Shown piece after piece: positions 4,598-10,687 of a stretch of 57,296 nt of DNA. The stretch is from Bacilli bacterium (GTDB lineage Bacteria; Bacillota_I; Bacilli_A; RF39; UBA660), in contig JAFXOW010000031.1 in NCBI GenBank assembly GCA_017528315.1, positions 1 through 57,296 of the forward strand, written 5' to 3'. Both the position numbers and the translations under genes were made by a program. Below the pieces are notes generated by a model. The model had not been told where the DNA came from and did no database searches. It was given only the letters and a program-made list of their open reading frames with translations. Each line of letters starts with the position of its first letter. Positions within the stretch are counted from its first letter, which is position 1.

Positions 4598-5365
4598 ATG
4601 AAAGAAATTACATTGATAATAGCAATCTTAATATCAGTAATACCAACTATATTACTAGGATATTATTTTTATAAAAAAGATACTATTAAAGAACCCCAAA
4701 AAATTATAAATAGTTTATTTATATCCGGAATATTTTCAGGAATAATAGTTGTATTTATATCAATTATTGGTTTAATTTTATTTCCAAGTTTTACTAATCT
4801 TAATGAAATAGATAATTTATTTATTTTAATATTTTATTCTTATATTTTTATTGCTTTAATTGAAGAATTAGCTAAGTTATTAATGATCTATAAAATAAGT
4901 TATAATTCTCGTGAATTTGATCAAGCTTACGATATTATTTTATATTCAGTATTGGTTGGACTTGGATTTGCTTGTTTTGAAAATATAATTTATATATTAG
5001 GAAATCCTAATATAAACACAGCAATAATAAGATGTTTTACTGCCGTTCCTGCTCATATTTCATTTCAAGTTATTATGGGATATTTCTTATATTTAAGTAA
5101 GATTAAAAAGAAAAAGAAAAATATTACTCTAGGACTATTAATACCTGTTTTATTACATGGTACTTATGATATATTAGTTTTTACTGGCAACATCTTATTA
5201 ATATTAATTGATATAATTTTCTTAATTATTTTATTAATTTATTCTGCAACCAGAATTAAAAAACTAATTGATATAGATAAACGTAATATGCATGGTTCAT
5301 TTTGTCCAAAATGTGGTACCAAAATTAATTATCTATATTGTCCTAATTGTGGTTATAAAAAATAA
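4598..5365 (+). CDS. prsW: PrsW-family intramembrane metalloprotease with C-terminal zinc ribbon
   Basis: A multi-pass membrane protein of about 8 hydrophobic segments with the PrsW-family motifs in order: EELAKLL (the EE..K glutamates), FACFENIIYILG, PAHISFQVIMGYF and LLHGTYDIL. These supply the Glu/His residues of a membrane-embedded metal site. The last 20 residues hold a zinc ribbon, CPKCG...CPNCG. In Bacillus subtilis PrsW performs site-1 cleavage of an anti-sigma factor, but no ECF sigma/anti-sigma pair is adjacent here, so the substrate is unknown. The gene stands alone between two terminators, with AGGTAGGT before the ATG. Confidence 0.85.
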   Translation: MKEITLIIAILISVIPTILLGYYFYKKDTIKEPQKIINSLFISGIFSGIIVVFISIIGLILFPSFTNLNEIDNLFILIFYSYIFIALIEELAKLLMIYKISYNSREFDQAYDIILYSVLVGLGFACFENIIYILGNPNINTAIIRCFTAVPAHISFQVIMGYFLYLSKIKKKKKNITLGLLIPVLLHGTYDILVFTGNILLILIDIIFLIILLIYSATRIKKLIDIDKRNMHGSFCPKCGTKINYLYCPNCGYKK

Positions 5366-7086: not shown

Positions 7087-7818
7087 TTAGTATTTAACAC
7101 TTACAAGATATAATCCTTCAGGATGAGCTGTCCTAAATCCTTGACTTCTATCTAATTTTTCAATTATTTCTTTAACACAATTTTTATCTTTCTTACCTAG
7201 TCCTATTTGAATTAATAATCCTACCATATTTCTTATTTGATATTTTATAAAACCATTTCCTCTAAAAGTAAAAGTTACAATATCATTTTGAACATCTATA
7301 TAAGCGTCATAAATTTCTCTTTCATAGTTTTCTCGTTTTTCTTTACTCTCCGTAAAAGATTTAAAATTATGTTTACCAATAAAATCTTTAATAGCATCAT
7401 TCATTAAATCAACATCTAATTTTTTATTAAATTGGTAAATATAATTTCTCTTAATTGGATTATATTCACCCATATTAAGTTTATATTCATATACTTTTTC
7501 TTTAACCATGTATCGTGCATGAAAATCTTTATCAACAACCTCGGTATTAATAACATGAATATCATTTGGCAATAGACTATTCATAGCTCTTTTTAGTTTA
7601 TAAGGAGTTATTTCAACATCTATATCAACATGTCCCGTTTGAGCAAAGGCATGAACTCCTTTATCCGTTCTACCACTAGCAACTATTTTAGTACTCTTAT
7701 TATTATTAATGTATTTTAAAACTTTATTAATTTCATTTTCAATAGTTCTATATTTAGGTTGACTTTCAAATCCATGAAAATTTGTTCCATCATAAGAGAA
7801 AGTTATTAAATAACGCAT
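7087..7818 (-). CDS. truA: tRNA pseudouridine(38-40) synthase
   Basis: TruA family, converting U38-U40 of the anticodon stem-loop to pseudouridine. The catalytic-Asp motif GRTDKGVHAFAQ is at about residues 49-60. Other family motifs are SYDGTNFHGF at the N-terminus, LPNDIHV in the middle and RGNGFIKYQIRNMVG near the end. At 243 aa it has normal length. It is last in the run after the ECF-like trio with 4 bp spacing, the same position truA holds after ecfT in Bacilli. Confidence 0.95.
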   Translation of the reverse strand: MRYLITFSYDGTNFHGFESQPKYRTIENEINKVLKYINNNKSTKIVASGRTDKGVHAFAQTGHVDIDVEITPYKLKRAMNSLLPNDIHVINTEVVDKDFHARYMVKEKVYEYKLNMGEYNPIKRNYIYQFNKKLDVDLMNDAIKDFIGKHNFKSFTESKEKRENYEREIYDAYIDVQNDIVTFTFRGNGFIKYQIRNMVGLLIQIGLGKKDKNCVKEIIEKLDRSQGFRTAHPEGLYLVSVKY

Positions 7819-7822
7819 ACTA

Positions 7823-8512
7823 TTACCTCACAATCAAAACCAGTATTAGTATTATAACATGAATTAATAAAAACAACAAATTAAATACATTAAAATTATT
7901 CTTATAATTATATTTTTTATTTTTATAAAATCTTAAATATTTAATCCAAACATATTCTTCTAAATCATTTTTAACTTTATTATCAATATTATTTTCAATT
8001 ACTTTAAAATAATCACTATCCATAGATATATTATTATCTTCTAAATAAGCTTCAACTTCATTATTAACTTTCTCTCTAAATTTATCTTCTTTTCTCTTTC
8101 TTAATTCTTTAAAAGTATATTTCTTTTTATTTCTTTTTGAAATATTTTTAATTTTAATAGCTTTAGTTTTAAAATAATAATATAAAATACTAATATAATC
8201 TATTAGTAATAATACTTTAATTATAATTCTAAACGTTTTAAAGGTTTCTTTTTCAATAAAAACAAAATTTATAAAATGAATTAAAAAATATCCAAATATT
8301 ATAATTGGCAATAAACTAGAAACAAATTTAATTATAGGTTTCTCATAGTATCTTGCCAAATATAAAACAAATAAATAGATTATTATAATTAAATAGACAT
8401 TACTAACAAAATATAAACTAATAATAAATATTATAAATGATAATATCACTACAAAATTATTTAAGTCATATATATTAAATTCCTCTAACTTATCTCTTAT
8501 TCTATCTAGCAT
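7823..8512 (-). CDS. Degenerate EcfT-like membrane protein
   Basis: I call this from position and topology rather than motif. Four hydrophobic segments (about residues 20-37, 39-53, 62-84, 97-112) are followed by a long charged, helix-forming cytoplasmic stretch (about 115-205) and a last membrane segment (about 208-227). This is the general layout of the ECF energy-coupling T subunit, with coupling helices before the terminal TM. The typical Ala-Arg-Gly/Ser coupling motifs are not visible. It sits exactly where ecfT lies, after two ABC-type genes and 4 bp before truA. The ATG at 8512 is preferred because AAGGA precedes it; an in-frame ATG at 8524 overlaps that site. Its true function is unknown. 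Confidence 0.5.
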   Translation of the reverse strand: MLDRIRDKLEEFNIYDLNNFVVILSFIIFIISLYFVSNVYLIIIIYLFVLYLARYYEKPIIKFVSSLLPIIIFGYFLIHFINFVFIEKETFKTFRIIIKVLLLIDYISILYYYFKTKAIKIKNISKRNKKKYTFKELRKRKEDKFREKVNNEVEAYLEDNNISMDSDYFKVIENNIDNKVKNDLEEYVWIKYLRFYKNKKYNYKNNFNVFNLLFLLIHVIILILVLIVR

Positions 8513-9206
8513 TTCTATACACATCCTTAATTAAATCATTTATATTATTATAATAATTAATTTTTTTCCCATATCCACCTGCAATCAAACTAAACTTTAT
8601 TAAATCTGGTATTTCAATATTATTATCTATTAAAAAGTCAATATCTTTAAAAACATTACTAACTTTATCATATATTAATAAATTATTGTTTTCAAATATT
8701 ACTAATGAGGTACACATTTCATATAAAATATTTATATTATTATCTATTATTATAATTGTTTTTTCATATTTCTTTTTTAATTCTAAAAGTATTTTTTTAA
8801 TTAATTGTTTGTTTTTTCTATCTAAATTATTAAAAATATTATTAAATATTATTACATCGGGATTTGTTATTAATGAAGTTGCTAGTTCTAGCAAAATTTT
8901 TTCAGAATTTGATAAAGTTGGTATATCTTTTTCTAAATAATCACTTGATAAACCAACCATTTCTAAACATGATACTATTTTTTCGATATAGTTGTCTTTA
9001 TCTTTAGTAATATGTTTTGAAAGATAAAATTCATCACTTATAGTTTTGGTTAAAAAATCTTTATAATTTATATAACTAATTAAATACTTGTTATTGTTTA
9101 ATTCATCTTTAATACTTTCTTTATATAAAATATTATCTTTATCAATAACACCTGTTATTTCTTTATTATTAAATTCTATACTTACATCTTTTAAATTTAC
9201 TACCAT
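8502..9206 (-). CDS. Catalytically dead ABC ATPase-like protein, EcfA2 position
   Basis: 234 aa, with the ABC fold still recognisable from the D-loop region NNIFNNLD and helical domain. The Walker A P-loop is gone: GVIDKDNILYKES stands where GxxGxGKS/T belongs. The signature LSGGE is LSNSE (98-102). The Walker B Asp-Glu pair is Asn122-Asn123. The H-loop His is Asn156. It should neither bind nor hydrolyse ATP in the usual way. The frame is intact and overlaps the upstream ABC-like gene by 7 nt and the EcfT-like gene, so it appears maintained rather than decaying. Family knowledge: ecfA1-ecfA2-ecfT-truA is a common Bacilli order. Confidence 0.7.
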   Translation of the reverse strand: MVVNLKDVSIEFNNKEITGVIDKDNILYKESIKDELNNNKYLISYINYKDFLTKTISDEFYLSKHITKDKDNYIEKIVSCLEMVGLSSDYLEKDIPTLSNSEKILLELATSLITNPDVIIFNNIFNNLDRKNKQLIKKILLELKKKYEKTIIIIDNNINILYEMCTSLVIFENNNLLIYDKVSNVFKDIDFLIDNNIEIPDLIKFSLIAGGYGKKINYYNNINDLIKDVYRNAR

Positions 9207-10000
9207 AAACTACTCTCCAATTCTTCCATATTAAAATATATTTTATCTAATAAGTCATAAGACATAAGTTTTAAAGACAATTCAACAACAATTGGAATAC
9301 TTAAGCCTATTTTAGTTAAATAAGAGTCTTGCTTTAATATTTCTTCTACACTTCCTTCTTTTTCTATTTTAAAATCTTTCATAACTAATATTCTATCACT
9401 TTTATAAATAGTATTTAAATTACTAGTTATATTTAAAACTGTTAATCCATTTTCTGTTAAATTATAAAGTCTTTTTAACATAAATTCTCTAGTATCTTCA
9501 TCCATATTATTAAAGGCATCATCTAAAACTAATAGCTTCGGTTTATGAACTAAAGCTAATATAATTAATAATTTACTTTGATCACTTTGACTTAAACTAT
9601 CAATATTTTTATTTAATAAATCTTCTATTTCAAAAAATTCACTTATATTATTAATTAGTCTATTTATTTTATAATTACTATAACCTAAATTTTCTAATGG
9701 ATATTCTAATTCTTCGCGAACTTTTTTATATAAAAAAGGCTTTTTAATATCATTAGTTACTATTCCTATCTCTTCTATATATTCTAAAACATTTTCTTTA
9801 TTTAAAGAAATATCATTTAAAATAAACATATCATAAGTTGGAATAATTGCACATAAAAGTTTTGTTAACATAGTTTTTCCACTTTGATTAGGCGCTATTA
9901 TACTTACAAATTCTTGTTCTTCTATTCCTAAATTAAATTCTTTAAAAAAAATTTTATCATCTATATTATAATTTAAATTATTAACAGTAAATAATGGCAT
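9200..10000 (-). CDS. Degenerate ABC ATPase, EcfA1 position
   Basis: A 266-aa ABC-type ATPase. The Walker A region reads APNQSGKT (36-43), which keeps the GKT but loses both upstream glycines. The signature is LSQSDQ instead of LSGGQ. Walker B is LLVLDD, so the catalytic Glu is Asp161, and the switch His is Ser193 (ITSN for ITHD). It may still bind nucleotide weakly. The protein continues about 65 residues beyond the ATPase core, as EcfA proteins do. It is first in the tight four-gene unit ending with truA and is separated from the preceding gene by a terminator. Confidence 0.75.
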   Translation of the reverse strand: MPLFTVNNLNYNIDDKIFFKEFNLGIEEQEFVSIIAPNQSGKTMLTKLLCAIIPTYDMFILNDISLNKENVLEYIEEIGIVTNDIKKPFLYKKVREELEYPLENLGYSNYKINRLINNISEFFEIEDLLNKNIDSLSQSDQSKLLIILALVHKPKLLVLDDAFNNMDEDTREFMLKRLYNLTENGLTVLNITSNLNTIYKSDRILVMKDFKIEKEGSVEEILKQDSYLTKIGLSIPIVVELSLKLMSYDLLDKIYFNMEELESSLW

Positions 10001-10043: not shown

Positions 10044-10070
10044 AAAAAAAAGATTAATTGACATTAATCT
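10044..10070 (-). terminator. Terminator after the thioredoxin-like gene
   Basis: The stem AGATTAAT/ATTAATCT (10051-10058 and 10063-10070) has a 4-nt loop and is followed on the minus strand by TTTTTTTA. It overlaps the stop codon of the upstream gene and separates it from the ECF-like trio. Confidence 0.75.
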
Positions 10071-10612
10071 ACATAAGAAAATAAAATATTTTTTATAGAA
10101 TTATAATCAGTATAATTTTCTATTACTTTTCCATCACTTACTTTAATTAAAGTTGGAACAGAAAGTTTTAAACTAGCTAAATCACTGGTAATATTAGCAG
10201 TATCAGCACGACAAATATTATTTCTACTATTTCCTAAATCTATTTTATATATAGGAAGTTTATTGGTAGCATTATTATATTTTTCAATAATAGATTCATA
10301 TAGCATTGCATTATCTTCATTCATTTCATATGCTAAAACATAATATTCAGAATCTTCTCGATTTAAAAGACTTCCACATAAAATCTTTATTGATTGCACC
10401 TCAGCACTATAAGTAATAGAATTTTCTCTGGTAAATAAATTCCATTCTCCAGTTTTAATTTTGGTAAATACAAGCATTAATAAAACAAAACCTATAACAC
10501 AAACAGCGATAATAACAAATGATTTTACACTTATTCCATGATTAGATTCTCTATATTCTTTCATATCTTTCTTTTCTTTTGCTAATCTTTTTTGATATTC
10601 TTTCTTTTTCAT
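10064..10612 (-). CDS. Membrane-anchored thioredoxin-like protein without CxxC
   Basis: 182 aa. A basic N-terminus rich in Lys and Glu (residues 1-30) and one TM segment (about 33-53, FVIIAVCVIGFVLLMLVF) precede an extracytoplasmic domain. The end of that domain, with SVPTLIKVSDGKVIENYTDY, matches the cis-Pro and last strands of a thioredoxin fold. No CxxC is present, so it is probably not a redox enzyme. The reading frame extends to a GTG at 10624, but GAGG lies 6 bases before the ATG at 10612, which I take as the start. It follows sigH by 75 bp. I do not recognise the family. Confidence 0.55.
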   Translation of the reverse strand: MKKKEYQKRLAKEKKDMKEYRESNHGISVKSFVIIAVCVIGFVLLMLVFTKIKTGEWNLFTRENSITYSAEVQSIKILCGSLLNREDSEYYVLAYEMNEDNAMLYESIIEKYNNATNKLPIYKIDLGNSRNNICRADTANITSDLASLKLSVPTLIKVSDGKVIENYTDYNSIKNILFSYVD

Positions 10613-10687
10613 AATCAACCTCACGTTCTATATTTTATCATAAACATTCTTAATTTTAAATATTTTTACTCTTTTTAGACATATTAA

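Follow-up and report, generated by a model that had tools for sequence, protein, structure and literature searches.

Three overlapping genes in the window, the 57,296-nucleotide stretch of Bacilli DNA analyzed here, are derived from the energy-coupling module of ECF transporters. Two of them, A1 and A2, descend from the ATPase genes ecfA1 and ecfA2, and the third, T, probably descends from ecfT. In the genus to which the window belongs, losses of ATPase motifs are fixed, the genes evolve under purifying selection, and the platform on which S-components dock has been lost. At the contact between the ATPases and T, docking residues track the presence of T. We favor the interpretation that the products form a pseudo-ECF complex, maintained by selection, that holds a single ATP and acts in signaling or as a scaffold instead of in transport, and we assign it a probability of roughly 0.55.

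The only known role of ECF modules, to our knowledge, is to drive transport, and we found no description of such a degenerate module in the literature searched, which lies mostly outside subscription journals. If our interpretation is correct, a naturally hydrolysis-incompetent EcfA1A2T that is fixed in a genus under strong selection would demonstrate that roles other than transport are open to the module, and the genes described below would be natural examples of the stepwise conversion of an ABC ATPase into a pseudoenzyme. Intermediate stages are present in sister genera, such that the order of events can be tested. An annotation of "EcfA/EcfT" in a reduced genome need not then signify vitamin import.

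Gene order and descent of the module

All genes of the module lie on the reverse strand. A1 (9200-10000; 266 aa) is an EcfA1-derived ABC protein, as judged from its match to TIGR04520, its motifs, its conservation in 17 species and its omega value. A2 (8502-9206; 234 aa) is an EcfA2-derived ABC-fold protein that lacks a P-loop and keeps the trans signature LSxSE, an assignment based on TIGR04521, a profile match to PDB 4mki, a predicted model and omega. T (7823-8524; 233 aa) is a probable EcfT derivative by position, hhalign comparison, hydropathy and omega. It is followed by truA (7087-7818), the fixed downstream neighbor of ecf genes in Bacilli and therefore our synteny anchor. A preliminary description of this DNA had equated the order A1-A2-T-truA with that of the Bacilli ECF module and had noted overlapping genes. 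The order is indeed that of the reconstructed ancestral Bacilli operon, ecfA1-ecfA2-ecfT-truA (PMC8046335), which is the arrangement of a group II ECF module. Overlaps of 7 nt (A1/A2) and 23 nt (A2/T) are found, and a gap of 4 nt separates T from truA.

The two ATPase-like proteins are distinct, with EcfA1 as the best family for A1 and EcfA2 as the best for A2. A1 matches TIGR04520 over its full length (5.5e-41, 140.8 bits), and A2 matches TIGR04521 (1.8e-19, 69.9 bits). Both scores fall far under the equivalog cut-offs (315 and 330, respectively), as expected for eroded members. Profile comparisons agree with these assignments: genus profiles of A1 and A2 retrieve EcfA1 and EcfA2 chains from the PDB, with A2 matching the EcfA2 of PDB 4mki at 2.7e-23. 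Thus, by sequence, A1 is a descendant of EcfA1 and A2 is a descendant of EcfA2. The lack of an ABC fold in the 234-aa protein had been named beforehand as grounds for abandoning the proposal. The structures that best match its predicted model (mean pLDDT 60, pTM 0.57) are EcfA chains, and this supports an ABC fold moderately, the underlying alignment consisting of three window proteins only.

Other genes near the module were also noted. A membrane-anchored protein with a thioredoxin-like C-terminus (VPTLI) and no Pfam match is encoded directly upstream of A1 (10064-10624) in all 17 genomes of the genus. It was considered as a partner of the module and rejected: the gene occurs family-wide away from the module (in other genera; in G021 it lies near T). 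Between positions 7087 and 14683, cysS, rlmB, a sigma-like factor and the ecf-truA genes are grouped together, as if the ancestral Bacilli cysS and ecf operons had been fused and the core cluster relocated. A PrsW-family intramembrane protease with a C-terminal zinc ribbon is encoded near truA (4598-5365), and in G008 it also adjoins truA.

Motifs and composite nucleotide sites of A1 and A2

The motif losses that the preliminary description had listed for A1 are confirmed. Walker A reads APNQSGKT (residues 36-43; positions 9872-9895, reverse strand), keeping the P-loop, whereas the LSGGQ signature is lost, with LSQSDQ in its place. Walker B (LLVLDDAF) carries Asp for the catalytic Glu, the switch (NITSN) carries Ser for His, and the Q-loop Gln is replaced by Asn. 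Among 17 species of the genus, GK[ST], the Q-loop Asn and the Walker B Asp are each found in all 17. The residue after the Walker B Asp is Asp in 16 species and Ser in one, and the switch residue is Ser in 16 and Asn in one. The A1 signature varies across the genus and is not more conserved than random sets of columns, and conservation of Walker A as a whole is marginal by the same comparison (P=0.09).

A2 is degenerate in a different manner. It has no GxxxxGK[ST], reads VIIFNN at Walker B and IIDNN at the switch, and lacks the P-loop in all 17 species; its switch position is variable and never His. Walker A, Walker B and the switch vary in the genus, the first two being no more conserved than random column sets. 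The signature, LSNSEK in the window, retains LSxS[ED] in 16/17 species, and its conservation exceeds that of random column sets (P=0.0034). Thus the earlier account of A2 as lacking a P-loop, the Walker B pair and the switch His holds for the window, but it must be qualified by the conserved signature and by the DEP that several genus-mates retain at Walker B. The window A2 is ~35 aa shorter than most, and no other A2 of the genus sits on so long a branch (0.72); additional erosion in this lineage is therefore possible.

ABC dimers bind nucleotide between the P-loop of one subunit and the signature of the other. By this geometry, the site composed of the A1 P-loop and the A2 signature is preserved and the other site is gone: A1 GK[ST] and the Walker B Asp are conserved in 17/17 species, and A2 LSxS[ED] in 16/17. 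Both ATPases lack residues of hydrolysis, but the two are not equally affected, and the residues of one composite site appear preserved. One ATP would probably be bound there, with the A1-A2 heterodimer held on the EcfT-derived membrane protein.

Hydrolysis by the known ECF mechanism is not expected. Neither a P-loop, nor the catalytic Glu with the switch His, nor an LSGGQ-type signature is found in both proteins, and, as had been proposed, the module is without the residues that ECF modules need for hydrolysis: Glu, His and the Q-loop Gln are replaced in A1, and the P-loop is gone from A2. In the Lactobacillus delbrueckii ECF module, mutating either catalytic Glu abolished both ATPase activity and transport (PMC10368641). 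The hydrolysis-dead mutant 2EQ from that work has a natural likeness in the window module, in which the nucleotide-binding residues of A1 are kept and its catalytic Glu is replaced. In the window module, however, ATP could be bound at no more than one composite site, and the platform of T is altered as well. Asymmetric sites with Asp for Glu at the degenerate site are also a feature of TM287/288, TAP, CFTR and MsRv1273c/72c. Those proteins keep one full catalytic site, whereas neither composite site of the window module combines a P-loop with Glu and His.

The T protein, S-component docking and A-T contact

The N-terminal part of T is hydrophobic and membrane-embedded by prediction, a last TM segment is kept, and in place of the coupling domain there is a charged segment of ~80 aa. 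It has no significant match in Pfam, NCBIfam or the PDB, a profile search of the PDB included, and no CbiQ match. Alignment with canonical EcfT by hhalign is weak (E=0.004) and colinear, and position and hydropathy fit. Two arginines in the cytoplasmic segment, Arg142 and Arg198, are invariant, and Arg198 aligns with an Arg of the last coupling helix. The earlier view that T keeps only topology is nearly correct given the lack of database matches, but it leaves out the colinear EcfT match and this aligned Arg. T is probably a much-changed EcfT, as far as such comparisons indicate. A single-sequence structure model of T (pTM 0.27) was discarded.

In real ECF modules, the S-component docks on a hydrophobic platform formed by coupling helices (PMC4820897). 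The window T has no such hydrophobic domain. The GRAVY value of its coupling segment is -1.45, and those of 15 T proteins of the genus range from -1.00 to -1.51, compared with +0.02 to +0.49 for 13 canonical T proteins. A search of the window genome (G000; a 93%-complete draft) that covered three S-component families, PF12822, PF09515 and PF07155, gave no match, and no CbiQ was found in the same draft. S-components would thus not be docked on T and vitamins would not be imported, consistent, at the level of sequence, with the earlier proposal that this is no longer a vitamin importer. The accompanying suggestion that an intact ECF module might exist elsewhere in the genome is not borne out, as none was found in this 93%-complete draft. 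Three of the 17 genus genomes (G001, G006 and G015) carry, apart from the module, a small ECF operon in which one intact ATPase is paired with a CbiQ-type T of ~180 aa; an S-component is seen in the operons of G006 and G015, and in G001 the contig ends there. The presence of these operons suggests that the native module is not a general engine.

The A1-A2-T complex itself seems to be kept, judging from the conservation of its contact residues. Within the genus, no part of A1 is better conserved than the Q-helix block (72% identity), which by position sits in the groove for the EcfT coupling helices. The A2 docking position, Asp or Glu in canonical modules, is acidic at 32/32 loci with T and at 1/7 loci without T, although these loci are related and do not represent 39 independent cases.

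Retained contacts, and the continued linkage of all three genes in the genus, would also be expected if the module were still a transporter. In such an unusual ECF-type complex, one site with Asp for Glu would hydrolyze ATP slowly, and an unrecognized membrane partner would replace the S-component. Some heterodimeric ABC exporters do tolerate one degenerate site (PMC12038006). However, such exporters keep one complete catalytic site, whereas here neither site has both Glu and His and A2 lacks a P-loop; mutating one Glu alone is enough to inactivate a real ECF module (PMC10368641); the S-docking platform is hydrophilic; and T has disappeared on three or more occasions in the family with A1-A2 retained. 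We consider continued transport improbable.

Selection in the genus and changes across the family

The preliminary description held that selection maintains the three genes and proposed a search for the same synteny in relatives. The module is present in all 17 genomes (species) of the genus that were examined. A1 and A2 are open in every one. Of the T genes, 15 are full length, one is divided between two contigs, and another (G016, contig C3) contains one in-frame TAA. The G016 T is otherwise well conserved, and the stop codon represents either a recent loss or a draft-assembly error. Median protein identities in the genus are 56% (A1), 48% (A2), 44% (T) and 72% (TruA). For the pair G006/G009, omega is 0.072 for A1, 0.073 for A2, 0.085 for T and 0.034 for TruA, and omega=1 is rejected with 2ΔlnL of 87 (A1), 101 (A2) and 56 (T), as it is for TruA. 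This is the sole unsaturated pair and does not include the window species; omegas of the other pairs, with dS from ~2.6 to >60, were set aside. Omega values of 0.07-0.09, together with the rejection of omega=1, therefore argue that the locus is not decaying in the genus. Intact close homologs accompanied by frameshifts in sister strains had been named as the mark of a decaying locus. No genus member with intact motifs was found, and the only lesion is the one TAA in T.

Translational coupling to truA might in principle be the sole reason why the frames stay open, their products being inert. The overlapping starts and stops are compatible with this, as is the A1/A2 junction, tATGGAAATA, which is nearly invariant across the family. 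But coupling needs open frames and not conserved amino acids, and along the entire genes dN is much lower than dS. Many residues are invariant, and conservation extends over the whole length instead of being confined to the overlaps. Coupling as the sole reason for retention is thus highly improbable.

Species trees of the family were built from rpoBC with FastTree and a quick IQ-TREE run. Canonical or near-canonical modules occur in sister genera (G031, G017, G019, G022, G026 and G032). A P-loop-less A2 is combined with a changed T in the window genus, G024 and G030, and is found without T in G025, G020, G029 and G033 and in G028, G023 and G027. In G023 (C8:26500-31500), A1 has shrunk to 149 aa, of which mainly the C-terminal part is kept, and A2 to 183 aa, yet the genes still overlap each other and truA. 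In G034 (genus g19; contig C39), A1, A2 and T are gone from the site and truA directly follows a short-chain dehydrogenase gene. Because it is shrunk in G023 and absent from G034, the module is dispensable somewhere in the family. Parsimony on the rpoBC tree requires at least two changes for P-loop loss and three for T loss, although a single origin of P-loop loss is not rejected (p-AU 0.41).

This series from canonical modules, through loss of T or of the A2 P-loop, to a truncated module and an empty site could reflect the slow decay of a functionless ECF remnant whose frames are not yet broken. The nonsense codon in the G016 T and the long branch of the window A2 also fit decay. It is nonetheless unlikely given the omega values of the genus, frames that are open in 17/17 A1 and A2 and 15/17 T at median identities of 44-56%, and non-canonical residues that are fixed and not variable.

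Conservation within A1 and A2 points to an additional feature of the family. In canonical family members, the C-terminal domain is more conserved than the ABC core (54% versus 39% for A1; 54% versus 41% for A2), the reverse of the outgroups (26% versus 46%), although the A1/A2 gene overlap places a further constraint on the last residues. This pattern suggests, at the level of sequence, that the C-terminal domains acquired a role specific to the family before the ATPase was lost. Function might even reside in these domains alone, independently of ATP (for example, in binding a cytosolic partner), with the ABC cores and T as passive carriers. Both the family pattern and the part of A1 retained in G023 fit this arrangement. 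In the window genus, however, conservation of the A1 core matches that of the C-terminus, and neither the A1 P-loop nor the A2 signature has been lost. The overlap constraint on the last residues also weakens the argument. We regard an exclusively C-terminal function as doubtful.

For the window genus, we favor a signaling or scaffolding complex in which the charged cytoplasmic domain of T would mediate an ATP-gated regulatory or scaffolding action. Across the family, action might proceed via the C-terminal domains of A1 and A2, which in most members are under stronger constraint than the ATPase core. A broader scenario, to which we give somewhat less than even odds, is that the whole family is converting an ECF engine into a non-transport complex. 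Constraint would have moved to the C-terminal domains before the motifs were lost; the window genus would have kept T with a new charged domain, and at least three other lineages would have dropped T and kept a soluble A1-A2.

The closest known system is the group II EcfA1-EcfA2-EcfT module, such as L. delbrueckii ECF-FolT (PDB 5jsz, 5d3m and 8bms). The window module shares with it the truA gene order, A1/A2 descent, a membrane T gene and the A-T docking positions. It differs in its P-loop-less A2, in the replaced catalytic Glu, switch His and Q-loop Gln of A1, in a coupling domain of T that is charged and not hydrophobic, and in a genome with no S-component of the three families searched. By analogy only, a complex that binds nucleotide without transport would resemble ABC nucleotide sensors of the SUR1 type; the window module, however, has no known channel partner, and its membrane part is unrelated.

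G017 belongs to a genus in which the module is canonical; its sole PF12822-like protein (C42:74500-78500) is encoded next to ApbE-like and FMN-binding-like genes, a neighborhood resembling a flavin electron-transfer cluster.
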